DNA of 64,000 nt from Bacteroidales bacterium (GTDB lineage: Bacteria; Bacteroidota; Bacteroidia; Bacteroidales; P3), in assembly GCA_016283175.1 (NCBI GenBank), contig JAEEMK010000078.1, forward strand, positions 1 through 64,000, given 5' to 3'. Under the pieces are notes generated by a model. The model did no database searches. It was not told where the DNA came from and worked only from the letters and a program-made list of their open reading frames with translations. Both the position numbers and the translations under genes were made by a program. This document shows, in pieces, positions 18,249-47,871 of the stretch (position 1 is the first letter of the stretch; every line of letters begins with the position of its first letter).

Positions 18249-19352
18249 TCATTTTTGAAGCCAGGGATGCTGAAGCACCTGTGCAATAACTTGATCCATA
18301 TCGTAATAGCGATATTCGGCAAGTCGACCGCCAAAGGAAGTCTTGCTTTCCTTTTCGGCAAGCGACTTGTATTGTGCTGCGAGGTCGTTGTTACGATCGT
18401 CATTGACGGGATAGTATGGCTCTGCACCGGGAGTCCAGTCCTGTGGATATTCGTATGAAATGACAGTGTCGGGCTGCTTGCCGAACTCGAAATGTTTGTG
18501 TTCGATAATTCGTGTATATGGTGTTTCGGCGTCGGTGTAGTTGAACACAGCGTTGCCCTGGAAGTTGTCGACACCTTCCAGCAGTTTGTGGTCAAAACGA
18601 AGCGAACGGAAGTCAAGATGCCCAAGACTGTAGTTGAAATAGGCATCGAGCGGTCCGGTGTACAGAACACGTTCGGCAGAGTCCATCCAGCGCTGTTTGT
18701 CGGCAAGGAAGTCTGTGTCCAGCCGAACTTCAACACCTTTCAGCAGCTGTTCAAAAATGGGTGTGTATCCGCCGATGGGGATGCCTTGATGAGGGTCGTT
18801 GAAGTAATTGTTGTCGAAAGTGAATCGGAACGGCAGACGACGTAGCACAAAAGCCGGTATCTGTTCGGCAGGACGCCCCCACTGCTTTTCGGAATAACCC
18901 TTGACAAGTTTGGTAAAGATGTCTCGTCCGGCGAGTTTCATACCCTGTTCGGTGAGGTTTTTCGGCTCTTCGATACCTGCGTATTCGGCCTGCTGCTGGG
19001 CGATGCGAGCACGAGCCTCGTCAGGGGTGTGCACATCTGGCCATAGCTTGGTAAATGTGTTCATATTGAAGGGCAGGTTATATAACTCGCCCTTGTAGTT
19101 GGCTATGGGGCTATTAATATAGTTGTTGAAATGCGCGAACTGGTTGATGTAGTTCCACACTTGCTGATTGGAGGTGTGGAAAATATGGGCACCATACCAA
19201 TGGACATTGATGTCGTTGACAGTTTTTGTGTAGCAATTGCCACCGATGTGGTTGCGTCGTTCGATGAGTAGGCAGCGTTTGCCTTGTGCTGTTGCCTGTT
19301 GGGCAAATACGGAGCCGTAGAGTCCGGCACCGACTATAAGGTAGTCGTACAT
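18249..19352 (-). CDS. glf: UDP-galactopyranose mutase
   Basis: 367 residues, FAD enzyme converting UDP-galactopyranose to UDP-galactofuranose for surface polysaccharide. The FAD-binding start YDYLIVGAGLYGSVFA, the HIGGN motif, WYGAHIFHTSNQQVWNYI, KGYSEKQWG and the late FGGRLAEYRYYDMDQ are all present, and length matches the family. It implies that the strain makes galactofuranose-containing glycans. The next gene (lytTR) begins 51 bp downstream on the same strand. Confidence 0.96.
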   Translation of the reverse strand: MYDYLIVGAGLYGSVFAQQATAQGKRCLLIERRNHIGGNCYTKTVNDINVHWYGAHIFHTSNQQVWNYINQFAHFNNYINSPIANYKGELYNLPFNMNTFTKLWPDVHTPDEARARIAQQQAEYAGIEEPKNLTEQGMKLAGRDIFTKLVKGYSEKQWGRPAEQIPAFVLRRLPFRFTFDNNYFNDPHQGIPIGGYTPIFEQLLKGVEVRLDTDFLADKQRWMDSAERVLYTGPLDAYFNYSLGHLDFRSLRFDHKLLEGVDNFQGNAVFNYTDAETPYTRIIEHKHFEFGKQPDTVISYEYPQDWTPGAEPYYPVNDDRNNDLAAQYKSLAEKESKTSFGGRLAEYRYYDMDQVIAQVLQHPWLQK

Positions 19353-23402: not shown

Positions 23403-26330
23403 ATGAAAAACACATCTTTGAAAACAACCATTCTTGCACTACTGTTGACTCTGACGTTTTCCACTTCCGCACAAAGCAGATCAACAAATCAACGTCAAAA
23501 AAAAGCCCATCACACTGTAGCTGCCAACGACACTACTGGAATAGCTGCCGCCAACCGATGGGCCGACAAACAGATGCGGCACCTCGATCTGGACGAAAAA
23601 GTTGGACAGCTGATGTTTCTTCGTGTTCCCCTCACGATGACCAAAAAACAGCAAAATGCTTTCGAAAAAAGCATTTCCAAATACAATGTCGGAGGCATCT
23701 GCTTCTTCAAAGGTACTGCCGACATACAGCTTGAACGGACAAGGCGCTACCAACGCATCGCTGACATTCCCCTAATGGTCACCATCGACGGCGAATGGGG
23801 ACTCGGTATGCGACTCACCGACTGCTACAGTTTTCCGCGTCAAATGCTTATGGGTGCTCTCGCACGCAACAACGACTCATTGATTTCGCTCTTCGGAGCC
23901 GAAGTGGGACGTCAATGCCGCAAAATGGGCATCAATGTGAATTTTGCCCCGGTTTGCGACATCAACAACAACCCGCGCAATCCCGTCATTGGGTGTCGCT
24001 CGTTCGGTGAAAACAAAAAACGCGTAGCCCGCAAGTCTGCTCTCTATGCTGAAGCGATGCAACGCGAAGGCGTTGTCGCCGTCGGCAAGCACTTTCCAGG
24101 ACACGGCGACACCGATGTCGACAGTCATCTCGACCTACCGGTAATCAACCATTCCAAAGAGTATATCGACACGGTTGACCTCTTCCCTTTCCGCCATCTT
24201 GTCAATCGTGGTATCAGGGGTATGATGATTGCTCATCTTCAAGTCAATGCTCTTGACAACAGGCCCAATATGCCGTCGTCTCTCTCCGAACGCATAGTAA
24301 AACCGCTGCTGCGCGACAAAATGCACTTTGATGGGCTTGTCTTCACCGACGGTATCGATATGAAGGCAGTCTCCAACAACTACAAGGACGGTGAAGGAGC
24401 CATACGTGCCATTCGCGCCGGAGCCGATGTCATTCTGCTGCCCATCGACTTGGAAAATACTGTCAATGCCGTCGTTAAGGAAGCCAAACACGACCCCGAA
24501 TTTGCCAAGATGATCGACGACCGATGCCACCGCATTCTGCGCGAGAAGTACCTCTGCGGCCTCGACAAACTGAATCTCGACAAGCTTTCGGTGCCTTCCA
24601 AGGAGGACGAAAAACGATGCGAAGAACTCACTCGCACTATGGCCCGAAAGGCGCTCACGCTGGTGCGCAACGAGAACTACACCTTGCCGCTGGATGAAAA
24701 ACAACAGTTTGTAAGCATCGCCGTAGGCAGTTGCGACACGGCTGCAACCAAACTCGACGAGGCTCTGAAGCTACGCATCCGCAAGGCAGGCACGGTGGTT
24801 ATTTCTCTTTATGCCAACCTGGCATCGAGCAACAACTATGGCGTGTCTAAAGCCACCATCGCATTGATCAACGACATCGCCGCCATCGACAGCGTCAACT
24901 CGGTGCTGGTCATCTACGGCTCTCCATACATCCTCGAGTCGTTCCCCACCTATTCCGCCACCCTCGCTCCGTCGGCCATCGTGATGGCCTACCAGAACCT
25001 GCGCGAGGTGGTCGATGTGGTGCCCGACGCCCTGACGGGCAAAACGCCGTTCGAAGGAAAACTGCCGGTGACTACGGGCGGATACCTTGAAGGCACTTCG
25101 CTCAAAGCGGTTCCGCGACCCAAGACGCCGTCGCGCTACGAGGCTCTCAAGAATGCCGGTATGGACATCGACTGCTTCCGCCGTATCGACTCCATAGCCA
25201 ACTACGGCATCGCGCAAAAAGCCTATCCCGGATGCGAAATTCTGGTGGCAAAGGACGGCAAAGTGGTTTACAACCAATGCTATGGACGGCAGACCTACGA
25301 CGTCGCAGCGGCACCCATCGACGTCAACACGGTCTTCGACCTGGCGTCGGTGACCAAAGTGTCGGCTACCAACCTGGCGGTGATGAAACTGGTCGATGCA
25401 GGCAAAATCAAACTCGACGACAAATTGTCGCGCTACCTCCCCTACCTCAAGCATTCCAACAAGAAGAACATCACCATCCGCCAGGCACTGTCGCACTATG
25501 CCCGCCTCAAGGCCTTCGACGCCTACTGGAAAGGGGCTCTCGACGACGACAACCTCTATGTCGGCGACAATCCTCCCGACGATTATACGCCCATTGGCGA
25601 AAACACTTATGTCAAAAACCATTACCGCGCCAACTTGTGCCAGCAGATTGTCGCCAGCAAGCTCGAGAAGCAACAGAAATACCTCTACAGCGACCTCGGT
25701 TTCATTTTGCTTGCCGACCTCGTGCAGCAGGTCAGCGGACAGTCGCTCGACATCTTTATGCAGCAGCATTTCTATGGCCCGATGCAGATGAACAACACTT
25801 GCTTCCAACCCCTCCAGCACGGCATCGACATCAAGCGCATCGCCCCTACGGAATACGACAAATCGTTCCGCAAGCAGCAACTGCGCGGCTACGTCCACGA
25901 CCCCAATGCGGCAGCTATGGGTGGCGTCGCCGGACACGCAGGCCTCTTCTCGACCGCCGGCGACCTCTTCAAGCTCTACCAGATGATGCTCGACTCGGGA
26001 CGCTACGAAGGCCGCCAGTACATCTCTGCCGAGACCTTCAACACCTTCAATTCGCGCCATTATGCCGACAAAGGCAACCGACGCGCGCTCGGATTCGACA
26101 AACCCTTCATCAAAGGCCGCAGCACTCACGTATCGCCGTCGGCTTCGCAGGCCAGCTTCGGCCACACTGGTTTCACTGGCATTATGGTATGGGTCGACCC
26201 ACAGTACAACCTCGTTTACATATTCCTCTCCAACCGCGTCTATCCCTCCTCATCGCCCAACAAACTCTCCTCGCTCAACATCCGGACCGACATTCAGCAG
26301 CTAATCTACAACTCGATTGGGGTCAAATAA
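23403..26330 (+). CDS. GH3 beta-N-acetylhexosaminidase fused to a class C beta-lactamase-type serine hydrolase
   Basis: 975 residues with signal peptide (1-23). Domain 1 (about 50-400) is a NagZ-type GH3 enzyme: KHFPGHGDTDVDSH at 229-242 holds the His/Asp acid-base pair and the nucleophile is Asp316 in FTDGIDMKA. A middle GH3 C-domain-like stretch (about 410-590) follows. Domain 2 (about 610-970) is a beta-lactamase/DD-peptidase fold with SVTK (649-652), YSD and HTG. This two-domain layout is known in Bacteroidota and points to turnover of peptidoglycan or its muropeptides in the periplasm. Codon use becomes more GC-rich in the second half. Confidence 0.93.
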   Translation: MKNTSLKTTILALLLTLTFSTSAQSRSTNQRQKKAHHTVAANDTTGIAAANRWADKQMRHLDLDEKVGQLMFLRVPLTMTKKQQNAFEKSISKYNVGGICFFKGTADIQLERTRRYQRIADIPLMVTIDGEWGLGMRLTDCYSFPRQMLMGALARNNDSLISLFGAEVGRQCRKMGINVNFAPVCDINNNPRNPVIGCRSFGENKKRVARKSALYAEAMQREGVVAVGKHFPGHGDTDVDSHLDLPVINHSKEYIDTVDLFPFRHLVNRGIRGMMIAHLQVNALDNRPNMPSSLSERIVKPLLRDKMHFDGLVFTDGIDMKAVSNNYKDGEGAIRAIRAGADVILLPIDLENTVNAVVKEAKHDPEFAKMIDDRCHRILREKYLCGLDKLNLDKLSVPSKEDEKRCEELTRTMARKALTLVRNENYTLPLDEKQQFVSIAVGSCDTAATKLDEALKLRIRKAGTVVISLYANLASSNNYGVSKATIALINDIAAIDSVNSVLVIYGSPYILESFPTYSATLAPSAIVMAYQNLREVVDVVPDALTGKTPFEGKLPVTTGGYLEGTSLKAVPRPKTPSRYEALKNAGMDIDCFRRIDSIANYGIAQKAYPGCEILVAKDGKVVYNQCYGRQTYDVAAAPIDVNTVFDLASVTKVSATNLAVMKLVDAGKIKLDDKLSRYLPYLKHSNKKNITIRQALSHYARLKAFDAYWKGALDDDNLYVGDNPPDDYTPIGENTYVKNHYRANLCQQIVASKLEKQQKYLYSDLGFILLADLVQQVSGQSLDIFMQQHFYGPMQMNNTCFQPLQHGIDIKRIAPTEYDKSFRKQQLRGYVHDPNAAAMGGVAGHAGLFSTAGDLFKLYQMMLDSGRYEGRQYISAETFNTFNSRHYADKGNRRALGFDKPFIKGRSTHVSPSASQASFGHTGFTGIMVWVDPQYNLVYIFLSNRVYPSSSPNKLSSLNIRTDIQQLIYNSIGVK

Positions 26331-26431: not shown

Positions 26432-29224
26432 TTATCTCTTCACTATTTTTACCACTGTTTCGCCACTGCGCAGCACATAAACGCCTTGTGGCAGACTGCT
26501 GACGTCCACAGTGTTGCTACCATCTTGCAGCTCCATCGTTCTAACAGCCTTGCCGTTGATGTCATACAGTTGCGCTGTCGTTGCTGCTTTACCGTCGACA
26601 ACAACAAAAAACTTGTCAGTAGCTGGGTTTGGATATACTTTCAGCAACGCTTCTTCGGCGACATCCAACGACTCAATGTTGGTATTCAGCACCGCCACTC
26701 CGTCAAGGTCGAATCCCGACGAATTACCAGGTGTCGGCCACGGGTCGTTGATTATGCGGCCCTCACTGTCGCGGGTGCCGTACTGGGGATCTATGCTGCC
26801 AACCACGTCGACAACTCTAACATAGTTGATGTTGTTGATATCTATTCCAGTGCTGTCGCGAAGTTCTTCAAGGTCGAACGGAGTGCCGTAACCCATACGG
26901 AACTTGCCAGCCAAATTGTTAATCATCGTCGGGTCGGTCGAGCCGTTGCCACCAGTCTGAACCTCAGTTTGCGTCAGCGATGTTGCCGGGAAGCGCACAA
27001 AACGTACACCGTCGCTACTGACCTCCACAAAGGCCAGCTCAAGGAAAGCGTCGCCAAACGAATTCTCGTACACTGCAAAGTCATATCCGTTGCCGTTCAC
27101 AATGGGTATGTCGAACGTCAGTGTAGCCGAACCGCCGTCACCGAGGCTCACCACCGTCAGGTTGTCGCTCATATCCACAGGACCTACAGCATACGAGTCC
27201 TGTCCATAGCTGGCATAGGCGGCGGCAGTCGAAATCACTTGATAGCCTCTCTCCACCGTGCATCCCGTAGCCCAGCCTTTTACCGCCGGACTATTGGCGG
27301 CAACAGCGTTGCAACCCTCGCTGCCAACAGCGCCGCAGAAAGGTCCGCTGACCACAGGAGCGCTGACAGGTAGTACAGGCATCGTATAGTTATGTATGTA
27401 ACTCCAGCCCCAACCGTCATAGTACACACTGTCGACCACAACTCCGGCTGCAGGGTCTGCCCATTTCGTGAAATCGCCGTTGTGAAGCTGAGCACTCATA
27501 CCGGCCGACATAACACCGTTCACCTTGTTTTCCCAGTAGTTGTTAGGAGTGATGCTGAAAGTGTCGGCATTGACCACAAACAATATGTCGTTCAGATAGC
27601 CACCGTCCATATTATAGCTGAAGCGGGGGTCTGCAGCCTGTATGTCGTTCATAACAGTCTGCATTCCAACGCTCTCACCGTCGAAACGATAGCCCCAGGC
27701 CAAAGCGCGTTCTGCCCAGTTCACGGCAAACACAATCTCGCTGCTGCCCTCGCCTACCCAGTAAACAATATCGCTGGCAGCTATTGTCGACTCCTCCGGA
27801 AGCGGAGCGCCAACAGGATAGATCGTCATAGGATATACATTGATATACATCCAGTAGGTGACACCGTCCCATTCATAGCTCGAGCTGTCGACAACAACTC
27901 CCGCTGCAGGGTCTGCCCATTTAGTGAAATCGCCGTTGTGAAGCTGAGCACCCATACCGGACGACGAAACACCGTTCACAGTGTTTTCCCAGTAGTTGTA
28001 CATCGTGATGGCCAGCGTGTCACTGCCCGCAACAAAGTTGATGTCATTCAGATAACCTCCATCCATAGTGTAGCTGAAACGAGGGTCGTTCGACGCAATG
28101 TCATCCATAACAGTCTGCATTCCAACGCTCTCGCCATTAAAACGGTAACCCCAGGCCAAAGCAGTGTCGGCCCAGTTGACAGCAAAGACAACCTCGTTGC
28201 TGCCCTCGCCAATCCAATACAGAATATCGCTGGCAGCAATCGTAGCCTCCTCGGGCAATTCAGGAGTCGACGAGGGCTCATCCACAGGCGTAGGAACTTT
28301 GACCCAGGCATATTCCATAAAATATGTGCCCATAGGATCCCAGCCTACACCGACACTCAAGTCGCCATATTTGAACACATCGCCGTCGTGAATCGTTGAC
28401 GCCGATCCGTTGCCGGCACTCTCACCGTTCAGGTTTGTCCACCAGAAATTGTAGCCCATCGATGTCGAAGCAGGATCCGCAAGGCCAAGCGTATCGCCCG
28501 TAGAGGTTACAAAATGGATGTCACCATTGTACGACGGTGTGCCCACCGTCCAAAAGCGCGGGTCGGCAGCGTCTATGGCGTCGACCATAGCCTGCGCCGT
28601 CGTAGTGCCGTCAAAGCGGTAGCCCCACGCAAAAGCCGTGTCGGGATCGCCGAAGTTCACAATAAAAACAGCACGGTTGCTGCCCTCACCCACCCAATAA
28701 TGGATGTCAGCAGTGTCTATAGTAGCATCCACAGGGTCTGTCGAAGCACCTCCGTTCGGATCTGTAGCCGCATTGGCTGTGCTCATCGTAAACGAGCAAC
28801 TGCTGCTCACCTCTATTGCGTCGCCGTTGGCGACAGGCTGGTTGTTGTAGGCATTCATAGCCCAGTCGCCATTCAGGTAGTAGCACCAGCCGTTCATCGA
28901 CGAACCCGAAACCAGAGTGCCGTCGTTATAAGTGATGTAGTTCATCAGCGAACTGCCGAAAGAATAGCTGAAACGGCTGTCGTGAGTGGCAATAGAGTCT
29001 ATCAACCCCAATGCCGTGGTGCTGCCATTCCAATGCACACCCCAGGCAAGGGCGAAATTGCCGTTCGGATTGTCGTCGAAAGCCACGACAACTACCGATG
29101 AATTGCTTCCCGTACCAACCCAATATTGCACACTGCTGGCAGGGAAATTAATACTTTTGGGCTGTGCCGCAACGCCAAAGGTCATCAACAGCCCTACAGA
29201 TAAAGTCAATAGTTTTTTTAGCAT
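26432..29224 (-). CDS. Cobalamin-riboswitch-controlled T9SS surface protein with four transcobalamin-beta-like repeats
   Basis: 930 residues. Signal peptide 1-20. Four repeats (about 27-146, 170-290, 329-465, 478-620) share xIxYWVGEGSN, VxFAVNWAD, LAWGYRFDG, a helix GMQTVMDDI, DPRFSYxMDGGYLNDI, YWENxVNG and LHNGDFTKW. This order (helix, FxY strand, Y-x-x-x-I strand, YW strand, G-D turn) resembles, by my reading, the beta domain of transcobalamin/intrinsic factor and DUF4430. Residues 630-848 form a beta-sandwich known from bacterial surface proteins (GSATLTF..IVNGNGYDFAVYEN, INDPWPTP..SSGFDLDGVAV). Residues 860-930 are a type A T9SS sorting domain (VYPNPATDKFFV). The frame stays open to 29578 but that part is the riboswitch leader. 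Inferred role: surface binding of cobalamin. Confidence 0.8.
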   Translation of the reverse strand: MLKKLLTLSVGLLMTFGVAAQPKSINFPASSVQYWVGTGSNSSVVVVAFDDNPNGNFALAWGVHWNGSTTALGLIDSIATHDSRFSYSFGSSLMNYITYNDGTLVSGSSMNGWCYYLNGDWAMNAYNNQPVANGDAIEVSSSCSFTMSTANAATDPNGGASTDPVDATIDTADIHYWVGEGSNRAVFIVNFGDPDTAFAWGYRFDGTTTAQAMVDAIDAADPRFWTVGTPSYNGDIHFVTSTGDTLGLADPASTSMGYNFWWTNLNGESAGNGSASTIHDGDVFKYGDLSVGVGWDPMGTYFMEYAWVKVPTPVDEPSSTPELPEEATIAASDILYWIGEGSNEVVFAVNWADTALAWGYRFNGESVGMQTVMDDIASNDPRFSYTMDGGYLNDINFVAGSDTLAITMYNYWENTVNGVSSSGMGAQLHNGDFTKWADPAAGVVVDSSSYEWDGVTYWMYINVYPMTIYPVGAPLPEESTIAASDIVYWVGEGSSEIVFAVNWAERALAWGYRFDGESVGMQTVMNDIQAADPRFSYNMDGGYLNDILFVVNADTFSITPNNYWENKVNGVMSAGMSAQLHNGDFTKWADPAAGVVVDSVYYDGWGWSYIHNYTMPVLPVSAPVVSGPFCGAVGSEGCNAVAANSPAVKGWATGCTVERGYQVISTAAAYASYGQDSYAVGPVDMSDNLTVVSLGDGGSATLTFDIPIVNGNGYDFAVYENSFGDAFLELAFVEVSSDGVRFVRFPATSLTQTEVQTGGNGSTDPTMINNLAGKFRMGYGTPFDLEELRDSTGIDINNINYVRVVDVVGSIDPQYGTRDSEGRIINDPWPTPGNSSGFDLDGVAVLNTNIESLDVAEEALLKVYPNPATDKFFVVVDGKAATTAQLYDINGKAVRTMELQDGSNTVDVSSLPQGVYVLRSGETVVKIVKR
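27350..28249 (-). repeat. Recent tandem duplication inside the repeat protein (repeats 3 and 4)
   Basis: Two adjacent about 450-bp segments (about 27350-27799 and 27800-28249) code for repeats 4 and 3. The encoded proteins share long identical runs, such as GYLNDI and LHNGDFTKWADPAAGVV, and the DNA is also nearly identical, for example around 27440-27490 and 27895-27945. Repeats 1 and 2 are far more divergent. Confidence 0.8.
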
Positions 29225-29394
29225 AATCAATACCGTTTTTTTTATGTTAATATTCAATTTCAACCCGGTATCGGTTGCGCCAAAGGGGAAAAAATAAACG
29301 ATAAAATCGGAAAACAACAAGACAACAATACTGCCTCTCCGTTTTACCGGATGCTTTTTCCTCGAAAGCGTACCGATATTTTCAGATTTGGCAG

Positions 29395-29551
29395 GTCTTC
29401 TGACTCGTTCTTTGCCCATCCGCCTTCCCACGCGACTATGGCATCGCGCAGTGGCTATCTTTTTGATTGGCAATCTACTGAACTCACAGCAGCGGGACTG
29501 TCCAGGATTCTCACCTGGTTCCCTTTTCACGCCTCTTTCGGCGACCAAATC
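29395..29551 (-). promoter_or_regulatory. Cobalamin riboswitch (B12 aptamer) before the repeat protein gene
   Basis: Read on the minus strand it has, in order: closing stem P1 GATTTGG (29551-29545) pairing with CCAAATC (29401-29395); GGGAACCAGGTGAGAATCC; CAGTCCCGCTGCTGTGA; GCCACTG; GGAAGGC; and the B12 box GAGTCAGAAGACCTGCC. These are the conserved blocks of the AdoCbl/Cbl aptamer. About 170 nt of leader separate it from the start codon at 29224. I see no clear terminator in the leader, so control may be at translation. Confidence 0.95.
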
Positions 29552-29556
29552 GTTTG

Positions 29557-29587
29557 CAAAATTACTAACAATTTTCATTCCTACAAA
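29557..29587 (-). promoter_or_regulatory. Promoter of the riboswitch transcript
   Basis: TTTG (29587-29584), 19 nt, TAATTTTG (29564-29557) on the minus strand. Transcription would begin within a few bases of the first P1 strand of the aptamer at 29551, which confirms both calls. Confidence 0.8.
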
Positions 29588-32857: not shown

Positions 32858-33793
32858 TCAGCAGCCAGGTCGGAGCAGTAACTTGCCGACAATTTTACGG
32901 ACTTGGCAGGGTACACCATCAAAAGCCATCGAGCGATGGGCGTCACCGGGAAGAATCACCAGAACAGCTCCCGCACAAAGTATCGTTTCCGAGCAGATAC
33001 CAACAGGCTTGAAGAGAGCAGCATCACCGAGTGGATCGTACTGCACAGCCAGAGCCAGCCTTTGGGCATCGATAGTCTGCATTATTTCCTCTCCAGATAT
33101 GAGCATCTGAATATCAATATATTTTCGATGGCATTCAAATGGTTTCCGCTCATCTGAATCTGTTTGATACTGCAGGACGTTGAAGAAGAAGTTGTCGTCC
33201 ACATCGTGCCGACCGAGTGCAAGCCCGTCGTACGACAGACCTTTAAGATAGCGGACTGCCTCAATACAACGCCGATTAATGTCGTCAGGAATAGCATCAG
33301 AACTGTTGATTCGTATCAAATAGTCGGCATAATCCCTAACAGCGCCCTCGCCGCCCTTGTGAGGAGCGATGAAATCGCTGGCAGCAAGGACTTCGCCAAC
33401 AGCATTGGATGGACATCCGACGCTGCCTCCTGCCTGTTTGATGGGAACCATACACTGTAGGTCGAGAAGATCGTCACCAATATAAGCCACATTTGAAAGG
33501 TTGCAAGGTCTGTCAGTGGATGAATATTTGGACAGAATATCCTCCAAACATTGCATTTTGTTCATCACTCCTTGATATACCTCATTCACACCCAGCTCTT
33601 TGCAACGCAGAGACACCATCGGGCTGGTGCGAGCGGTGATTACGACAGGGATGATGGCGTGTTTGCCGAGAAGCGAATGCAACGCAAAACCATCCTTGAC
33701 GTCAAAGGCTTTCATCATTTCGCCATCAGCACCAAAATAGATCTTGCCATCGGTAAGTGTGCCGTCGACATCCATTACAAGGAATTTGATCAT
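32858..33793 (-). CDS. Fusion of KdsC-like HAD phosphatase and YhcH/YjgK/YiaL (sugar anomerase-like) domain
   Basis: 311 residues. Part 1 (1-160) is a C0-type HAD phosphatase: MDVDGTLTDG with Asp8 and Asp10, ITARTS, and YIGDDLLDL, as in KdsC and Neu5Ac-9-phosphate phosphatases. Part 2 (165-311) is the YhcH family: KPFECHRKYIDIQMLISGEE and FLPGDAHR-like VILPGDAHRSM; a member of this family is an N-acetylneuraminate anomerase. It would remove the phosphate and set the anomeric form of a 2-keto sugar acid. It is last in a seven-gene leftward operon, 7 bp after the TPP-enzyme large subunit. Confidence 0.9.
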   Translation of the reverse strand: MIKFLVMDVDGTLTDGKIYFGADGEMMKAFDVKDGFALHSLLGKHAIIPVVITARTSPMVSLRCKELGVNEVYQGVMNKMQCLEDILSKYSSTDRPCNLSNVAYIGDDLLDLQCMVPIKQAGGSVGCPSNAVGEVLAASDFIAPHKGGEGAVRDYADYLIRINSSDAIPDDINRRCIEAVRYLKGLSYDGLALGRHDVDDNFFFNVLQYQTDSDERKPFECHRKYIDIQMLISGEEIMQTIDAQRLALAVQYDPLGDAALFKPVGICSETILCAGAVLVILPGDAHRSMAFDGVPCQVRKIVGKLLLRPGC

Positions 33794-33800
33794 AAGGCGT

Positions 33801-34910
33801 TCAATAGTTGAGTATAGACAAAACTTTTTTATTCAGCTCTTCGTCGAGCAACGGCATAATAAGACCCGTCTCCCATTTAATTTTGGGAATAAGAAGAGTG
33901 TCGGGATTGAGAGACATATTGATGAGACAGGGCTGGTCGTCGCACAGCCAATCTTTGTAGTTTTTCAATTCGTGATAAGAGGGAATGTTGGCAGCCTTGA
34001 TACCATAAGCCTCTGCAACCTTTTGAAAATCAGGAACAGTATAACCACTTTCTGCCGTAGTTTGCGCATAATGGTCGTGATAGGAGCCGTGCTGGATTTC
34101 GCTGATTTTACCCAATACGTGATTGTTAAAAACAATAATTTTTATGGGCAGATTCTCACGTTTTACCGTCTCGAGTTCCTGAATGTTCATCTGAAGTCCG
34201 CCATCGCCAGTTATGCAATAGACTATGCCATTGTTGATGGAAATTGAAGCGCCAATGGCGTAAGGTAATCCGCAACCCATTGAACCATAGCCACCACCGA
34301 TGAGAATACGTCCATCGTATCCCTTTAAGGCAAGCGACTGCGCACACCAACACTGATGCTGTCCGATATCTATAACACAAATCGGGTTGGGCGGCAGAAG
34401 TTCGGCTACAGCTTCAACGGCATCGTTACCCTCGGTATTGTCGTGTTTTGCAAGCAGTTCTTTGACTGCAAGGCAACGTTTTTTCCATTCAGAGCAATCG
34501 GGGAAATCCTTTGTAGCCAAGTATTTCATAAAGTCGCGAGCATCCATAAGGTGCTTTTCCTCATCATCCTTGACATTGCGGCTCAACTCGGCCTGATCGA
34601 CATCGGCACGAACCAGTTTAGCCTTGGAAGCGAACCATTCCTTTTTGTGACCTATCTGTCTGAGTCCCAAACGAGCTCCAACGGAGATAACCAAGTCGCA
34701 ATGCTCGAGAATCATATTCGACCAGCGGTTTCCATAAGTGCCTATCATACCGATACGCAGGTCATCCTGAGCTATATCGAGAGCATTCATTGTGGAGAGA
34801 ACCGGAATGTTCGTTTTGTGAGCGAAATCAATAACCAACTGTGTAGCACCAGCAGCACGCACACCACCACCGACAAGTAGTACCGGTTTCTTAAAATTGA
34901 GATAGTTCAT
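33801..34910 (-). CDS. Acetolactate-synthase-like TPP enzyme, C-terminal subunit
   Basis: 369 residues containing only the second two of the usual three domains: the central Rossmann-like domain (about 8-130: KPVLLVGGGVRAAGATQLV) and the TPP-diphosphate domain (about 170-350) with the GDG...NN signature (GDG 235-237, NN 262-263). The PYR domain with the catalytic Glu is encoded by the gene just upstream, whose stop overlaps this ATG (ATGA, 34907-34910). Together they equal one full enzyme less the normal interdomain linker. Probable role: carboligation or decarboxylation of a 2-keto acid in sugar synthesis; substrate unknown. Confidence 0.88.
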   Translation of the reverse strand: MNYLNFKKPVLLVGGGVRAAGATQLVIDFAHKTNIPVLSTMNALDIAQDDLRIGMIGTYGNRWSNMILEHCDLVISVGARLGLRQIGHKKEWFASKAKLVRADVDQAELSRNVKDDEEKHLMDARDFMKYLATKDFPDCSEWKKRCLAVKELLAKHDNTEGNDAVEAVAELLPPNPICVIDIGQHQCWCAQSLALKGYDGRILIGGGYGSMGCGLPYAIGASISINNGIVYCITGDGGLQMNIQELETVKRENLPIKIIVFNNHVLGKISEIQHGSYHDHYAQTTAESGYTVPDFQKVAEAYGIKAANIPSYHELKNYKDWLCDDQPCLINMSLNPDTLLIPKIKWETGLIMPLLDEELNKKVLSILNY

Positions 34911-35434
34911 AGCTCGACCTCCATTTTTTGAATGTTGAAAGGAAAATCAATGATTACACCGCCTTTTCTACCTATCAGAGCCATATTGTAAGCACGTGAA
35001 ACGATTTCGGGAAAGTCAATGGCACTTAAAGGGGTGACGGATAGTTTTGTAATATGTCTGGTCATAGAAACGATATCCATTTCCTGAAAACCATTCTGGC
35101 GGATACCTGAAAATCCCTTCCTTTCATTGGTAGGCACATTACCGCAGATGCCCATAACAGGAATACTGTCGAACCAAGCATCGGCCAACCCTCCAAAGGC
35201 GTTAATGGCACCAGGTCCAGAGGTTGTAAAGAAAACGCCCAGTTTGCCGCTTGTGCGTGCATATCCGTTTGCTGCAAAAGAGCACCCCTGCTCGTTATAG
35301 CATACGTGAACATTTATTTCGGGTCTGCTGCGCAATGCATCCTGGAATGGAACTATATATCCTCCGGCATATCCAAAAACATCGGTAACACCGTGTTGGA
35401 TAAGAAAATCCACCAAATACTCAGAACAGTTCAT
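34907..35434 (-). CDS. Acetolactate-synthase-like TPP enzyme, N-terminal (PYR) subunit
   Basis: 175 residues. PYR domain only: SEYLVDFLIQHGVTDVFGYAGG, the catalytic Glu48 in CYNEQGCSFAANGYAR, TTSGPGAINAFGGLADAW and GGVIIDFPFNIQ. It ends where a usual one-piece enzyme would enter the linker to its central domain. A 4-bp overlap with the next gene implies coupled translation and a 1:1 complex. The upstream aldolase gene ends 2 bp before this ATG. Confidence 0.88.
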   Translation of the reverse strand: MNCSEYLVDFLIQHGVTDVFGYAGGYIVPFQDALRSRPEINVHVCYNEQGCSFAANGYARTSGKLGVFFTTSGPGAINAFGGLADAWFDSIPVMGICGNVPTNERKGFSGIRQNGFQEMDIVSMTRHITKLSVTPLSAIDFPEIVSRAYNMALIGRKGGVIIDFPFNIQKMEVEL

Positions 35435-35436
35435 AT

Positions 35437-36477
35437 CTATTTGTTTTTTAACCTATAATCATTATATTTTTCGTCCAACTGAGAGAAATCCGTCTTCGAA
35501 TAGCCAGCACCGTAACGGGTTCGCTGCTGAGGAGTCAAAAGATCTATGACATTGAAGATGTCGGTGATAGAACTATCTGTGGTTTTCTTCAGATGGTTGA
35601 CATTGTCAATATGAGAATGCTTTGTGCCGCAAATGAACATCGGCAAATCATAGCCCCAATGTATGTGGTCGAGAACAGGAACGATGTATTTATCGATTGT
35701 TTGCAAAAGGACCTGAATATTGTAGTCGGTTCCGCAGTGTTTGTTCAGATAGTCGGCAAGCAATTCCGTTCTTGCATTGCCGGCACCACGCCCCATACCA
35801 AACAACGAACCGTCAATACATATCTCACGGCCGCTCTTTTCGGCCAATTCTACCATACGTTCGGCTAAAGCACAAGAAAGTCCTAGATTGTCGTGCGAAT
35901 GAAGTCCAATCATTATCTCCTTGTCGAGCAGTTCGTCGAACTGCCTGAAAATCTTTTCCAGGTCAGTCATATACATAGCACCAAATGTGTCGACAATGGA
36001 AAACACAGCTGGTTTTACTATATTAACTTTCTCAATCAACGCAGCACGTTCTTCCGGCGAATAGCTAATGCTGTCCATAGGGTTGAACTGTACGCGGTAG
36101 CCTTTCCCCTGAGCCTTTTTGCAGAATTGCAACGAAGCATCAATCTCGTATTTTGCGAACGAAATACGGAGCCATTTGAATGACTTTCCATCACAACAAT
36201 CCAATTCCTCCGGTGTGTAACGGCTATTGTCGCAAAAGCCAAGATATGTAGATGATTTAGGATTCTTTGGAAGATATTTGATAACATCCTTTGAGTTGTG
36301 ATAAACTATTGTCTCGCCATTAACCTTGCTTTGCAGAAAACCAGTTTCCATATAGTCAATTCCAGCATCCACAAGGCCTTGCAATATTCCTTTAACAAAT
36401 TCAGGATTAGAGTTTTTATCAAACAGATAGCCTCCATCCCTGATTGTACAATCCACAATATGTACTTTCGTTCCCAT
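35437..36477 (-). CDS. DRE-TIM (HMGL-like) aldolase
   Basis: 346 residues. A TIM barrel with D-C-T-I-R-D (9-14), metal-binding H192-x-H194 in GLHSHDNLGLS, and SLFGMGRGAGNARTELL, the layout of DmpG-type 4-hydroxy-2-oxovalerate aldolases and related pyruvate-dependent enzymes. The C-terminal about 80 residues lie outside the barrel. In this operon it stands where a Kdo-8-P or sialic acid synthase would be expected, so it may join pyruvate (or a related keto acid) to a sugar aldehyde. Reaction not proven. Confidence 0.85.
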   Translation of the reverse strand: MGTKVHIVDCTIRDGGYLFDKNSNPEFVKGILQGLVDAGIDYMETGFLQSKVNGETIVYHNSKDVIKYLPKNPKSSTYLGFCDNSRYTPEELDCCDGKSFKWLRISFAKYEIDASLQFCKKAQGKGYRVQFNPMDSISYSPEERAALIEKVNIVKPAVFSIVDTFGAMYMTDLEKIFRQFDELLDKEIMIGLHSHDNLGLSCALAERMVELAEKSGREICIDGSLFGMGRGAGNARTELLADYLNKHCGTDYNIQVLLQTIDKYIVPVLDHIHWGYDLPMFICGTKHSHIDNVNHLKKTTDSSITDIFNVIDLLTPQQRTRYGAGYSKTDFSQLDEKYNDYRLKNK

Positions 36478-36488
36478 CAGCTATTATC

Positions 36489-37148
36489 TTATTTTTCAGA
36501 TTCCTTTCTAATTCTATAAATAGCATCGCAAATAGCGAAGTCTTCGGGATAGTCAATGTCCATCGCCTCGATTTTACCCACTTCGCAGATGTATGGTTTT
36601 GCCCCCAAACGCCTGTTGTACTTTAAAAAGGATTCTTTTGTAAACACATAGGCTATAGATGTCTCTGCAAAAACATCAGGCAGGTCTTGAGTGCGTGGAA
36701 AATGGTCTGGGTCAAAATTTATGGGCTTCCCGTCTTTCCACAGGAATTGCTTTATGTTTTCAGCACAGAATGCACTGTCGTATTCTCCAGAAGCGACTTT
36801 CTCTACGCATTTATCAATTGTGGACACCTCGGCAAACGGTGACGTTGTATGCGCATTAACATATATATCGGCATCAACCTCTTTCATAAAACTTCTGATG
36901 ATGTCGTTGGCATTCTTATCATCTCCGTCCAACTCCACCGGACGCTTTATAAATTTAACTCCATCAAGGACATATGGCACCACAGCTTCGTCAGAACAAT
37001 AAATATAGACTTCATCTATCTTCCTTGATTCCAAGCAGGTACGCTGGATGAACGACATCAGCGGAGTACCGTCAAAAAAAGGTTTAATATTTTTCTGCGG
37101 AACGCGCTTGCTTCCCAGTTTTATAGGTATCAACGCAACTGTTTTCAT
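36489..37148 (-). CDS. Acylneuraminate cytidylyltransferase family (CMP-sugar acid synthase)
   Basis: 219 residues from ATG 37148 (MKTVALIPIKLGSKRVPQKN). The frame extends 4 codons to a TTG, less likely. The CTP loop GSKRVPQKNI, the VNAHTTSPF stretch, FAETSIAYVFTKESF and a late MDIDYPEDF match NeuA/PseF-like enzymes that make CMP-nonulosonates from CTP. It is fourth from the 3' side of the operon, between the isomerase and the aldolase genes, and supports a CMP-activated product. Confidence 0.92.
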   Translation of the reverse strand: MKTVALIPIKLGSKRVPQKNIKPFFDGTPLMSFIQRTCLESRKIDEVYIYCSDEAVVPYVLDGVKFIKRPVELDGDDKNANDIIRSFMKEVDADIYVNAHTTSPFAEVSTIDKCVEKVASGEYDSAFCAENIKQFLWKDGKPINFDPDHFPRTQDLPDVFAETSIAYVFTKESFLKYNRRLGAKPYICEVGKIEAMDIDYPEDFAICDAIYRIRKESEK

Positions 37149-37169
37149 ACTATAATCCAATGTTATATT

Positions 37170-38123
37170 CTACAAGCAACTGAACGAATCAATAAGGCCT
37201 ATCACCTGCCCTTTTTCCCCGGTTACGACCAATGTATGTATACTGTTGTGACGCATCATTTCCGACGCTTTTGACAGGCTGGCTTGTGAATCAATTGTTT
37301 TTGGTTTGGCACTCATTATTTCCCTGACCGTCAACGAAAAGAAACTTTCTTTATAGTTCTGCATAGCCCGACGGACATCACCGTCAGTGACCACACCCAA
37401 CAATCGACCAGAATCCATCACTATTGCTATGCCCTGTTTGGCTCGGCTGATTTCAATAATTGTGTCGCTGACTTTGTCATTGGGACTCACAATTGGCAAA
37501 TCGTTGGTAAACATATAGTCTTCAACGCGGGAAAGAAGCCTTTTGCCCAAGCTACCTCCAGGATGGTATTTTGCGAAATCGCTTTCCTTGAAATTACGTC
37601 GTTTAATCAATGCACAAGCAAGAGCATCACCCATTGCCAATGTGGCTGTTGTAGACGACGTCGGTGCCAGGTTAAGAGGATCTGCTTCACGCTCCACTGA
37701 TATGTCCAGATGGCACACACAAAGACGGGCCAACGGAGAACGGGGATTGCTACTGACTCCGATTATAGATATACCACGACGACGCAGCAAAGGCAAGAAG
37801 CGCAATAATTCTTCGGTCATTCCGCTGTAACTGATGGCCATCACCAAATCGTTTCCATCAATCATTCCCAAATCGCCGTGATAGGCATCGAGCGGATTGA
37901 CAAAAAAAGAAGGGGTTCCTGTGCTAGCCAGCGTAGCAGCTATTTTGTGTCCTATATGTCCTGATTTTCCAACTCCAGTGATGATAAACTTGCCCTTGCA
38001 GTGGTATATCATTTCAACGGCATCTACAAAATTGTTGTCAAGTCGCGGCACCAATTTTTGTATTGCCTCAGCCTCATCAAGCAAGCACTGTCGTCCAACA
38101 TCTATTATATTTTGATCAGTCAT
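37170..38123 (-). CDS. KpsF/GutQ/KdsD-like sugar-phosphate isomerase (SIS + CBS)
   Basis: 317 residues. SIS domain (about 30-170: GKFIITGVGKSGHIGHKIAATLASTGTPSFF, PTSSTTATLAMGDALACAL) followed by two CBS domains (about 195-317), the architecture of D-arabinose-5-phosphate isomerase. It converts ribulose-5-P and arabinose-5-P, the Kdo precursor. A house-keeping copy for Kdo may exist elsewhere; this one lies in a special sugar operon and may supply or modify a pentose- or aldose-phosphate for it. Confidence 0.93.
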   Translation of the reverse strand: MTDQNIIDVGRQCLLDEAEAIQKLVPRLDNNFVDAVEMIYHCKGKFIITGVGKSGHIGHKIAATLASTGTPSFFVNPLDAYHGDLGMIDGNDLVMAISYSGMTEELLRFLPLLRRRGISIIGVSSNPRSPLARLCVCHLDISVEREADPLNLAPTSSTTATLAMGDALACALIKRRNFKESDFAKYHPGGSLGKRLLSRVEDYMFTNDLPIVSPNDKVSDTIIEISRAKQGIAIVMDSGRLLGVVTDGDVRRAMQNYKESFFSLTVREIMSAKPKTIDSQASLSKASEMMRHNSIHTLVVTGEKGQVIGLIDSFSCL

Positions 38124-38150
38124 TTTCTTTCGGAAATCAATATTAAAGAC

Positions 38151-39224
38151 TTAGATTTGATTGAATTTCCTGTTTGGTACAGGTTTACCAAAAAAACTTT
38201 TAAGTTTTGGATTTCCCTCGACTCCATACCAGTCAGCCTCGACGCTTTCGGGGAAAGAGTTAATTGAGGTAGAACATATTGTTACTGCCCGCTCCACATT
38301 TGTTCCCATAAGCACCAGTAATTGCATATTGACAGTCTTGTCATAAATTGCCACTTGAGGGAAATAACGTTTATAGTCAAAAGTATCGCGCGGGTGTAAT
38401 TTCAACAAAACCTGCGACAAATCATAGTGGGAGAAAATATCTTTAAGAACAGACACATACTCATTTTCAGTAAGAATACGGTCGTCAATCATAGGTTGTG
38501 TGAGAAATATAATCTTTCGGCTACTAAGCAGTTCTATGTCGCTGTCAGAAACATCGAAAACATATCGAATGAAATCCCGTTTGCTTGGAGTAGACTCATC
38601 CCACATCTGCTGCAAAGATTTGATATGCACAGGTTTGTCCTTGAACGCCACACTCTTGTTAACCTCAGTCATATAAAACTCTTTACACTGGTCGTTGTTG
38701 CCCCACGTTCTGATGGCAACATCACCATAAAGTAGCCCTTCAAGATGCCCCCAAAAAGTCGTTTGTTTCTTCACCTGCTTTAAATATTCAGGACTATCGG
38801 CCTGCATATTCTGCGACATACAAAGAGGACCATCCGAAAGAAGAGAATAGTCTTGTTTGCCAATAAGAGGGCCTATGAATCCGAGATCAAGACCGTATAT
38901 CTTCGCACTTTTTAAGAACGGGAAACGGTTGTCTCTGATCATTCTCAAATATAGTTTATAAAACCATCTACTTGGAGTCCAAATGGTTCCAGTCTGTTTC
39001 CCCTTAAAATGCACTGCGGGAAGCCTAGAACTGATATCTTCAGTGACGGCATTACCAACCATATAGCAGGTGCGATGCTTAACTGTATCTTCGTCCATAA
39101 GCAGAATATACTGCAACAACGCATATATGGAACCCGTCATACAAACATTTGCAATGTCTTCATAACGGATACTTATTTTACCGTCAAGCGATTCTATGGC
39201 TTTACCCTTCATTGACTTTAACAT
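38151..39224 (-). CDS. Sialyltransferase-like glycosyltransferase (GT52/polysialyltransferase type)
   Basis: 357 residues from ATG 39224, no signal. The short motifs of bacterial sialyltransferases of the GT52/POLYST kind are in order: D/E-D-G as SDG (130-132), K-x-HP as KLHPRD (275-280), and the S/T-rich CSTS (317-320) followed by NSFPES. Overall similarity is otherwise weak, so the family assignment is moderate. As first gene of the operon it would transfer the CMP-activated sugar acid made by the others to a surface glycan. Confidence 0.65.
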   Translation of the reverse strand: MLKSMKGKAIESLDGKISIRYEDIANVCMTGSIYALLQYILLMDEDTVKHRTCYMVGNAVTEDISSRLPAVHFKGKQTGTIWTPSRWFYKLYLRMIRDNRFPFLKSAKIYGLDLGFIGPLIGKQDYSLLSDGPLCMSQNMQADSPEYLKQVKKQTTFWGHLEGLLYGDVAIRTWGNNDQCKEFYMTEVNKSVAFKDKPVHIKSLQQMWDESTPSKRDFIRYVFDVSDSDIELLSSRKIIFLTQPMIDDRILTENEYVSVLKDIFSHYDLSQVLLKLHPRDTFDYKRYFPQVAIYDKTVNMQLLVLMGTNVERAVTICSTSINSFPESVEADWYGVEGNPKLKSFFGKPVPNRKFNQI

Positions 39225-39348
39225 TATCAAACGAATTGACTATCAATCATCATTTTAGTCATACCATACAATTGTGATACGACAATGCAAATTTACACAT
39301 TTTTTTTGAATTACTTGCACGCTAGGGAAATAATAACAAAATGAAAGT

Positions 39349-46398: not shown

Positions 46399-47871
46399 TT
46401 ATTTGTCTGAAATTTGATTTTCAGAATGTTTTTGTTTCTTTTCGGAAAAGACGTCAAGAGAAACAACTGCGGCCGTAAAAGTCCAGAAAGGCACCGACAG
46501 TTTGTCGGTATCCAAAAAATTGTTGAAGATGCCGTGGATATAATAAGTCAATAAACTAAGCGTAAGAGCCAACGCGAGCCGGGCAATCCTTGGATCGGCG
46601 GCAGAGCGATAAAGGTGTACGCCAGTGACAAAGGTGGCAAGGAAGATGCAAAGTATCAGCGCAGCTCCAGGAACACCCTGCTCAGTTAACGGTCCAATAT
46701 ATTCGCTGTGGGCATTGCCACGGTTGCCTGAATTTGTACTGATAACCGACAGCTGGTAGCTGCGTTGGTATCCGGCGTATAAAAACTGATATGTTCCGGG
46801 GCCGCATCCGAGCAGCGGACGTTCTTTGAACATTCGCATTGCCGACGCCCAACGGTTGAGGCGTTCAAGGTTGGAGGCATCGGTCGAAATATTGGATATC
46901 GACTTGACCTGCCCCGAAAGGTCATAGGACGAATCCTGCTTGTTTTTGCCAAGCTTGTAAAGCACATCCGACTGATAGAAAAAAAATAACGACGCACCAA
47001 AAGCAAACAACAGTACAAGCCAACGCACCTTCATCCCCATTCGGATAGCGAAATAGACTCCAATGGCACCAATGACACTAATCCACGCAGCACGCGAGTA
47101 GGAAAAGAAAAGTCCCACTAGCAGTAATGCAAAAGCTGCCATCAATAAAGGGCGCAAAACTGTGGACGAGGCTCGTTTACCCTCTCCGTCAGGTACTATC
47201 ATATAGTGGAAGGCGATGGGGACAAACAATGCTATTACGCATCCGTATGCAGTATGGTCGTTATAGAAAGGTTGCATCACACGGTGAAGGGTTTGCAAGT
47301 CGTGAAAGTTTCCCAACGTTTTTGCCGTTGAAATCAGTATCACAACAATTAGCGATATGGCGTAGCAGTAGAAAAATTGCTTGACACGCTTGCTGTTGCG
47401 GAATATCTGCGAAGACGCAAAAAAGAAAGGAATGACAAACCATAGTCGTGCTGCGAAGTATTTGAACGAAACGTCAGGCATCTGCGACGTTGCAGATGTG
47501 ACCAGCATCCATACAAGCATCGCAAGAACTGCAATAGTCACAGGATGCTGCAATATACGGCGGTCGAAACTACGTTCGACAAGCACACGGAAAAGGAACA
47601 TCACCGTGAAAAGTATCATCATCGGCTCAACAGGCATTGAAAGTTCCATTCCTGGCAACAGTGCAAAATCAACCGCAAACGGTGTCAGCAGCGCTATTAC
47701 AAGCAGTCCTGTTTCAAACCTCATTATGAATAGAGCGAGTACAAGTCCTGCCAAAGGCAAAAGAAATAGCCAATAAATATCGCGTGAGAGCATAAAGAAA
47801 TTCAACACAAGATATGCCGCTGTAACCACAACGGCAGCAACGAGTGCGCTGTTTTTCTTAAACCAAGCCAT
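46399..47871 (-). CDS. O-antigen ligase/polymerase (Wzy/WaaL-type) membrane protein
   Basis: 490 residues with about eleven hydrophobic helices. A large loop (about 330-400) with RPLLGCGPGTYQFLYAGYQ and NAHSEYIGPLTEQGVPGA is the Wzy_C signature region of O-antigen ligases and polymerases. The gene follows a Wzz-like chain-length gene by 50 bp, which favours a polysaccharide polymerase, but ligase function is also possible. Confidence 0.88.
   Translation of the reverse strand: MAWFKKNSALVAAVVVTAAYLVLNFFMLSRDIYWLFLLPLAGLVLALFIMRFETGLLVIALLTPFAVDFALLPGMELSMPVEPMMILFTVMFLFRVLVERSFDRRILQHPVTIAVLAMLVWMLVTSATSQMPDVSFKYFAARLWFVIPFFFASSQIFRNSKRVKQFFYCYAISLIVVILISTAKTLGNFHDLQTLHRVMQPFYNDHTAYGCVIALFVPIAFHYMIVPDGEGKRASSTVLRPLLMAAFALLLVGLFFSYSRAAWISVIGAIGVYFAIRMGMKVRWLVLLFAFGASLFFFYQSDVLYKLGKNKQDSSYDLSGQVKSISNISTDASNLERLNRWASAMRMFKERPLLGCGPGTYQFLYAGYQRSYQLSVISTNSGNRGNAHSEYIGPLTEQGVPGAALILCIFLATFVTGVHLYRSAADPRIARLALALTLSLLTYYIHGIFNNFLDTDKLSVPFWTFTAAVVSLDVFSEKKQKHSENQISDK

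Follow-up and report, generated by a model that had tools for sequence, protein, structure and literature searches.

How might a bacterium assemble an acidic sugar destined for activation with cytidine monophosphate (CMP) when the enzyme that usually closes its carbon skeleton is missing from the gene cluster? The question is raised by a seven-gene operon on the minus strand of a 64,000-nucleotide stretch of DNA, here called the window (positions 1 to 64,000 of contig JAEEMK010000078.1, assembly GCA_016283175.1), from a Bacteroidales bacterium. To our knowledge, the CMP-ulosonic acid pathways that lead to 3-deoxy-D-manno-octulosonic acid (Kdo), neuraminic (Neu), pseudaminic (Pse) and legionaminic (Leg) acids and 2-keto-3-deoxynonulosonic acid (Kdn) all form the key C-C bond with a phosphoenolpyruvate (PEP)-dependent synthase. 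Searches of the seven genes with Pfam and NCBIfam profiles found neither KdsA nor NeuB, in agreement with a first-pass annotation made from the sequence. The operon contains instead an aldolase and a two-chain thiamine diphosphate (TPP) enzyme. With moderate confidence, the operon is read here as one for a CMP-ulosonic acid made independently of PEP. Its product is probably a CMP-activated 2-keto sugar acid that is neither Kdo nor a sialic acid of the NeuB type.

The aldolase, the CMP synthetase and the two TPP chains, one carrying the N domain and the other the M and C domains (M+C), are located together in all 15 core loci, which belong to 14 genomes of two phyla. These loci are the window, L016 to L027, L137 and L138; L020 and L022 come from one assembly. 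When genome contigs were scanned with the aldolase, 80 loci were recovered. Twelve of them (L016 to L027) are complete and closely related, with 58-87% identity; L028, which has only part of an aldolase at the edge of its contig, was excluded from the count. No TPP chain, CMP synthetase or YrbI phosphatase was found at the threshold used near the 67 distant aldolase loci (24-30% identical). The remaining two loci, L137 and L138, were found with the TPP N chain among 295 genomes of the order of Lachnoclostridium sp. Marseille-P6806 (the record that contains L026), which we take to be the Lachnospirales; the split enzyme occurs in three of the 295. Because the four core genes stand together in every one of the 15 loci, in two phyla, their grouping is not due to chance, and the association of aldolase and TPP enzyme with the CMP synthetase that the first-pass annotation had remarked on is borne out.

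What is conserved amounts to four or five of the seven genes. All core loci except L022 and L025 have YrbI nearby (13 of 15), and in L137 its gene is inserted between those of the aldolase and the TPP N chain. The fusion of YrbI to YhcH is present in five loci. A glycosyltransferase of family 52 (GT52) is near four loci, the window and three of the other 14, and GT52 homologues also occur in L120 and L186, which have other types of aldolase. KdsD is near three loci, the window and two of the others. Such counts are lower bounds, as L017 stops just past the phosphatase and L021 begins about 3 kb ahead of the aldolase. The co-occurrence that the first-pass annotation proposed to look for extends to the aldolase, both TPP chains and the CMP synthetase without exception, less completely to YrbI and only in a third of the loci to the YrbI-YhcH fusion, and its assignment of GT52 to a single seven-gene pathway is not supported. 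The system is sparsely distributed: among the 149 genomes searched in the window's family, three have close aldolases and five have the split TPP chain. Of 395 genomes sampled across the phylum, the window's own was the sole one with the split chain, a second match being unsplit.

The TPP enzyme is split in all 15 core loci and also in two loci that lack the aldolase. The linker between the N and M domains is 28-35 residues long in the split enzymes (both chains summed, with the second start assumed), compared with 51-84 residues in unsplit ones. In the six loci of the window clade the two chains are joined by a short stop/start overlap, and the M+C chain of the window has its own ATG with GGAGG ahead of it. 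In eight loci (L016, L017, L018, L020, L022, L026, L137 and L138) the second chain is in the +1 frame, and the only codons within the first gene at which it could start, ahead of the conserved K/R-K-P, are TTG. L025 has an ATG inside the first gene, and in the two loci without an aldolase the second chain begins past the stop of that gene. These differing layouts speak against an assembly error or one common frameshift. A sequencing error or a pseudogene was considered as the cause of the split and rejected in view of its recurrence in the 15 and the two further loci, the at least three junction layouts with differing frame relations and the shortened linker. Judged from the sequences, the split is genuine. 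Ribosomal frameshifting by +1 may operate in the nine loci whose C chain is in that frame, the eight just listed among them. In six of the eight junctions with apparent TTG starts, the two glycine codons ahead are GGA GGA, resembling a ribosome-binding site.

Alignment shows the catalytic glutamate (YNEQG) and an RQxGFQE insert in the N chain and the GDG...NN motif in the M+C chain. A tree of 28 proteins and a later one of 32 both unite the split enzymes in a single clade with support of 100/100. The TPP enzyme of the window is 38-40% identical to four unsplit enzymes from YerE-type loci, as compared with 32-34% to six acetolactate synthases; the latter were taken from carrier and related genomes, and the tree contains no characterised YerE. 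The loci of the unsplit relatives carry RfbF-, RfbG- and RfbH-like genes, which score over curated cut-offs beside L140 and were recognised in the others by clustering with the L140 set. The RQxGFQE insert is common to the window enzyme and the YerE-context enzymes and is absent from the six acetolactate synthases. LGKI(S/T/V)EIQ is found in all 15 core enzymes and LGKISETQ in the two split enzymes without an aldolase; the counterpart reads LGMVRQW in four of the six acetolactate synthases and LGMIR(H/Q)F in the YerE-context enzymes. The acetolactate synthase model TIGR00118 gives 150 and 217 bits over the two chains, well below its cut-off of 538, and no small subunit of acetolactate synthase was found in the operon with Pfam and NCBIfam.

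When compared with the Protein Data Bank (PDB), the M+C chain matches first 5ahk, called acetolactate synthase II, and second 8rph, which an excerpt of PMC12188165 identifies as JanthE, a YerE-like enzyme. According to the excerpted text of PMC12247030, YerE moves a pyruvate-derived unit onto a cytidine diphosphate (CDP)-linked keto sugar, and ErwE favours longer donors, for example 4-hydroxy-2-oxo acids. The operon resembles the yersiniose and erwiniose systems of YerE, ErwE and JanthE in that proteins encoded in YerE-type loci have the highest identity to its TPP enzyme and JanthE is the second-best PDB match of the M+C chain. It differs in that the enzyme consists of two chains rather than one, in that the RfbF/RfbG/RfbH CDP-glucose genes, present beside the unsplit relative L140, are absent, and in that the enzyme is coupled to an aldolase and to CMP activation. 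The Arg of the GAR...R motif, which binds the carboxylate of the acceptor in acetolactate synthases, is retained both in the window enzyme and in the YerE-context enzymes. The TPP enzyme is likely to be YerE-like and, by its sequence relationships, is of the carboligase type whether it is closer to YerE or to acetolactate synthase. Within Lachnoclostridium's order, L142 (5086-11677) has a YerE-like TPP enzyme near an over-long protein resembling glycerol-3-phosphate cytidylyltransferase (114 bits, below the cut-off of 165).

The aldolase has 148 of 346 residues invariant over the 15 aligned rows, and the DCT.RDGGY and H.H motifs are retained. It belongs to the superfamily of HMGL-like metal aldolases, as shown by the PF00682 match, the TIM-barrel fold and the Asp/His metal motif. 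An AlphaFold model, used for the fold only because its mean predicted local distance difference test score is 67.5, matches 3dxi, a putative aldolase of Bacteroides vulgatus, and structures of DmpG, the 4-hydroxy-2-oxovalerate aldolase; both have the fold and metal motif in common with the operon enzyme. However, DmpG has RDGSH in place of RDGGY, and no aldehyde dehydrogenase is present in the operon. A related arrangement is seen in the window's family in loci with C-terminally extended aldolases (L117-L120, L122 and L123), where the aldolase also adjoins a CMP synthetase but has an extra C-terminal domain and no TPP enzyme beside it. The CMP synthetase adjoins the extended aldolase in six of seven loci, some of which have a haloacid dehalogenase-type phosphatase or a gene resembling 2-keto-3-deoxygluconate kinase (scores under cut-offs). 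No description of this extended module was met in the literature, though no search by name was made. The recurrence of the pairing of aldolase and CMP synthetase without a TPP enzyme argues that the aldolase makes the acid that becomes activated.

The CMP synthetase has 68 of 223 residues invariant over the 15 rows, and in the tree it branches apart from the KdsB clade. KdsB models give it 26-36 bits against cut-offs of 193-281. Its best model is PseF (77 bits, cut-off 205.7) and its best PDB match is PpNeuA (E 5e-15), yet it is only about 24% identical to the single NeuA in the tree. YrbI scores 126.7 bits with the KdsC equivalog NF007019 (cut-off 208) and is over the cut-off of the subfamily TIGR01670, and YhcH reaches 73.9 of 160 bits with the acetylneuraminate anomerase equivalog NF040884 and is over that of PF04074. 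Relatives of YrbI, YhcH and GT52 act on sialic acids. Two subtypes of the CMP synthetase can be distinguished. One unites the enzymes of the window, of L023 and L024 (82-84% identical to that of the window) and of L137 and L138 (74-77%). The other is found in L019 and L021, where identity to the window's enzyme is 52-55% although the aldolases are 83-84% identical. An exchange of the CMP synthetase gene among clusters seems to have taken place. In L020 two CMP synthetases stand in tandem.

The relation of the operon to the Kdo and sialic acid pathways was examined in the genomes that carry the cluster. The search covered 14 genome entries that represent 12 distinct genomes (two pairs being identical), the genomes of L137 and L138 lying outside it, and KdsA was told from 3-deoxy-D-arabino-heptulosonate 7-phosphate (DAHP) synthase by size and score, not by a KdsA-specific model. 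The genome of the window (about 94% complete) has a KdsA-sized PF00793 protein, KdsB and a second KdsC-like gene on three other contigs (C23, C79 and C20, respectively), which makes the CMP synthetase and YrbI of the operon second copies. The KdsD of the operon is the only KpsF match over the cut-off in this genome. With the exception of KdsD, a Kdo pathway thus appears to be encoded outside the operon. Because no other KdsD was found while the remaining Kdo-type genes are elsewhere, the operon KdsD probably serves Kdo synthesis and is lodged in the operon without being a core part of it; arabinose-5-phosphate (Ara5P) may be shared. KdsD was rejected as a core gene of the pathway on these grounds and for its presence near only three core loci.

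NeuB (PF03102) has no match in the window's genome and is absent from 11 of the 12 distinct genomes; in the twelfth, that of Lachnoclostridium, it lies on contig C4 and the cluster on C2. The nearest KdsA-sized PF00793 match to any cluster is about 68 kb away (in G118). In Lachnoclostridium no KdsA-sized match is present, a PF00793 match some 40 kb away from the cluster having 377 amino acids, as expected of a DAHP synthase; KpsF matches are weak and none is a KdsD over the cut-off, and the two CTP_transf_3 matches are that of the cluster and one beside NeuB. The single PF00793 match of G155 is also of DAHP-synthase size. A neuB or kdsA gene regularly accompanying the cluster just outside its borders, which would have undone the proposal of the first-pass annotation, is not seen in these 12 genomes. 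The view of KdsD as a dedicated supplier of substrate is not supported, given also the lack of a full KdsD match in the Lachnospirales carrier tested. The operon shares with the Kdo pathway (KdsD-KdsA-KdsC-KdsB) KdsD, a YrbI/KdsC-like phosphatase and a CTP_transf_3 enzyme but has the aldolase and TPP enzyme in place of KdsA and a CMP synthetase outside the KdsB clade. The best matches of that synthetase, being of the PseF and NeuA types, recall the sialic and other nonulosonic acid pathways (NeuB-YrbI-NeuA; Kdn, Pse, Leg), but the window's genome has no NeuB match, and the aldolase and TPP enzyme would build the carbon skeleton.

From gene content and family placement we infer the following reactions, substrates, product and order of steps. 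The two-chain TPP carboligase would decarboxylate pyruvate or a similar 2-oxo acid and transfer the resulting two-carbon unit to an aldose phosphate, so that a ketose phosphate is formed. The class II aldolase would add pyruvate to this ketose phosphate, yielding a phosphorylated, possibly C-methyl-branched ulosonic acid. YrbI would then remove the phosphate, YhcH would speed up anomerisation, the CMP synthetase would activate the ulosonic acid, and GT52 would transfer it onto a surface glycan. An aldolase/TPP route to a CMP-activated acid, the central idea of the first-pass annotation, is retained here; the dedication of all seven genes to it is not.

The placing of the TPP step ahead of the aldol step is tentative. 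It derives from two of the five genomes of the window's family that have the split TPP enzyme, G121 and G088. Neither has an aldolase at the locus; a close aldolase has no match in G121 and a weak one on another contig in G088. The TPP genes of both sit with a short-chain dehydrogenase/reductase (SDR) and an IspD-like cytidylyltransferase (L176 9982-14076 and L197 8649-11639), and the G121 locus, L176, has in addition a gene resembling a CDP-glycerol phosphotransferase. Most simply, the TPP enzyme of these genomes would yield a phosphorylated ketone open to reduction and activation with CDP, and perhaps a CDP-activated alditol is made from it. A split TPP enzyme that accompanies an SDR and an IspD-like gene, without the aldolase, would be independent of the aldolase product, which argues, with modest confidence, that the TPP enzyme acts first. 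In a more specific version, a two-chain YerE-type carboligase would use pyruvate and an aldose phosphate to form a 1-deoxyketose phosphate, and addition to its ketone by the aldolase would give a 4-C-methyl ulosonic acid to be CMP-activated and transferred. This version is unlikely. With Ara5P as the aldose it would lead to a 4-C-methyl nonulosonic acid, and if true it would be part of a set of several modules of pyruvate aldolase and CMP-sugar genes in Bacteroidales glycan loci. The possibility of a branched product had been raised in the first-pass annotation; it fits the occurrence of the nearest unsplit TPP relatives in branched-sugar loci.

A number of observations weigh against this reading as a whole or in part. 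The placing of the TPP enzyme near YerE is not firm: with the two chains joined, every one of the 15 PDB sequences found at E values up to 1e-60 is labelled an acetolactate or acetohydroxy acid synthase, JanthE being absent from the set; 5ahk has the RQxGFQE insert as well; L144, a protein of YerE context, groups on the side of the acetolactate synthases in the trees as drawn; and several deep forks of these trees are open or join long branches. The aldolase is far under the cut-offs of the DmpG equivalogs (84.3 of 286 bits for TIGR03217 and 90.2 of 229 for NF006049), and DmpG-type aldolases normally use aldehydes, while the proposed aldol step needs a ketone acceptor. YrbI is missing near two of the core loci, and the want of a KdsD over the cut-off in Lachnoclostridium implies that Ara5P may not be the substrate. 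In G122, which has no close aldolase match, the only KdsA-sized gene shares its operon with YrbI and a related CMP synthetase, so that a PEP synthase may serve related modules. Finally, the argument from the SDR and IspD-like genes presumes that both act on the TPP product, and by analogy the precedent of ErwE would favour the opposite order.

In that opposite order, the aldolase would join pyruvate to an aldehyde to give a 4-hydroxy-2-oxo acid, which the TPP enzyme would then use as a donor, as ErwE does, or acetylate at the keto carbon, as an acetolactate synthase would, before the branched acid is CMP-activated. The excerpted part of PMC12247030 lends this some weight, as the donors preferred by ErwE are the kind of product that pyruvate aldolases make. 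Against it, split TPP enzymes exist without the aldolase, and pairs of aldolase and CMP synthetase exist without the TPP enzyme. The retained Arg of the GAR...R motif, carboxylate-binding in acetolactate synthases, would suit acetylation of such an acid, but YerE-context enzymes have kept it too. Moreover, use of the aldolase product as a donor would cost it the carboxylate that the known CMP-ulosonate synthetases need. The aldolase-first order is regarded as unlikely. A TPP enzyme that is a plain 2-oxo acid decarboxylase, supplying an aldehyde to the aldolase in the manner of phosphonopyruvate decarboxylase in phosphonate synthesis, would dispense with the ketone acceptor and agree with the aldehyde-using DmpG enzymes among the structural relatives of the aldolase; the outcome would be an unbranched ulosonic acid of unusual length. 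The nearest sequence relatives of the TPP enzyme, however, are carboligases (acetolactate synthases and YerE-type enzymes), and its central domain is retained, which makes a mere decarboxylase quite improbable.

Two further alternatives were weighed. Ordinary Kdo, or a known sialic acid, could arise by another route, in which the operon stands in for KdsA: homologues of KdsD, KdsC and a CMP synthetase are at hand, and the aldol addition of pyruvate to Ara5P would yield the skeleton of Kdo-8-phosphate. This would leave the TPP enzyme without a role. The genome of the window has KdsA-, KdsB- and KdsC-like genes on other contigs as well; the CMP synthetase lies outside the KdsB clade, and the Lachnoclostridium carrier has neither a KdsA-sized protein nor a KdsD over the cut-off, nor a CTP_transf_3 gene besides those of the cluster and of the NeuB locus. 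Such a product is thought very unlikely. It is hardly credible that no joint pathway exists and that the TPP enzyme is an acetolactate synthase of branched-chain amino acid synthesis, located in a glycan operon by coincidence. The joined chains do have acetolactate synthases as their top PDB matches, and in the window's genome, at its present completeness, the only matches to TIGR00118 are the two chains of the operon, with no ordinary acetolactate synthase found. Yet the small subunit gene is absent from the operon, the three Lachnospirales carriers each also have an acetolactate synthase over the cut-off, LGMVRQW is replaced by LGKI.EIQ, and linkage to the aldolase and the CMP synthetase is invariable. 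The reading of the operon as a PEP-independent source of a CMP-ulosonic acid is preferred to these alternatives.

In the genus of the window, a yfhO-like gene, present in 71 of 79 genomes, flanks a variable glycan region that often opens with an ispD-like gene. Twenty regions on the yfhO side and three others were examined. The cassettes on this side include the core in G118 and also in L027, the extended-aldolase type in G125 and G101, and the split TPP enzyme with an SDR in G121. That of G122 (L174) is a KdsA/YrbI/CMP synthetase operon whose KdsA is the only KdsA-sized match of the genome. The operon of the window is not at the yfhO locus, the yfhO match being on C74 and the operon on C98. 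An interchange of PEP-synthase and aldolase modules at one locus was considered, and the case for it is weakened, since the KdsA-type gene of G122 may simply be a Kdo gene. Also on this side, G065 (L186 3395-4693) encodes a fusion of a CMP synthetase with an aldolase domain of RraA-like type (PF03737, 83.7 bits), next to GT52, KdsD and KdsA; here the CMP synthetase has as its partner an aldolase of another family, not related to the first. By eye, the yfhO side of G110 (L168 9680-13902) holds an apparent phosphonate-type module with a cytidylyltransferase fusion, a short TPP decarboxylase, an alcohol dehydrogenase and LicD.

The seven genes, all of them open reading frames (ORFs) within 32858-39230, have the order and the domains given in the first-pass annotation, each assignment being backed by Pfam and NCBIfam profile scores over cut-offs. 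From upstream to downstream they are spaced by 27, 9, 11, 2, -4 and 7 nucleotides. The start of GT52 may equally be a TTG at 39230 or an ATG at 39224, the latter being the border set originally. The operon is bordered upstream by an nrdG-like ORF (Fer4_12 match) and, by eye, an nrdD-like ORF, and downstream by a convergent gene that ends at 32836.

Table. Genes of the operon and the junction of the two TPP chains, in order of transcription (scores in bits).
Feature	Position	Strand	Evidence
GT52 / polysialyltransferase-like glycosyltransferase	38151..39230	-	PF07922 Glyco_transf_52 61.8, cut-off 26.1
KdsD/KpsF arabinose-5-phosphate isomerase	37170..38123	-	kpsF TIGR00393 333, cut-off 203.7
CMP-ulosonate synthetase (predicted)	36489..37160	-	PF02348 CTP_transf_3 66.9, cut-off 22.6
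HMGL-like / DmpG-like class II pyruvate aldolase (predicted)	35437..36477	-	PF00682 HMGL-like 84.6, cut-off 29
TPP carboligase, PYR (N) chain	34907..35434	-	PF02776 TPP_enzyme_N alone, 127.6, cut-off 26.8
ATGA stop/start overlap separating both TPP chains	34907..34910	-	sequence
TPP carboligase, central + PP (M+C) chain	33801..34910	-	PF00205 TPP_enzyme_M 99.4, cut-off 30.4; PF02775 TPP_enzyme_C 125.3, cut-off 21.9
YrbI (KdsC-like) phosphatase fused to YhcH (NanQ-like anomerase)	32858..33793	-	TIGR01670 136.3, cut-off 106.95; PF04074 YhcH/DUF386 91.8, cut-off 26.5

Elsewhere in the window, other surface-glycan genes encode an O-antigen-ligase-like Wzy_C protein (46399-47871) and a uridine diphosphate-galactopyranose mutase (18249-19352). 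A family-3 glycoside hydrolase fused to a serine hydrolase domain of the beta-lactamase type is encoded at 23403-26330. The proteins at 19414-21756 and 26432-29578 have type IX secretion sorting tails; the former contains an IgGFc-binding-like domain and the latter, by eye, several repeated segments.

No description of this gene set was found in the open-licence literature, as judged by titles and the beginnings of abstracts, and the earlier designation of the operon as undescribed is kept provisionally. Lachnoclostridium sp. Marseille-P6806 may offer a strain for direct testing. If the proposal is true, the split TPP enzyme would be a natural two-chain carboligase for tertiary-alcohol chemistry. 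The combination of an aldolase with a TPP carboligase would represent a second chemical logic for making CMP-activated acidic surface sugars, and a structurally new acidic sugar would be predicted in bacteria of two phyla, those of the gut and rumen included.

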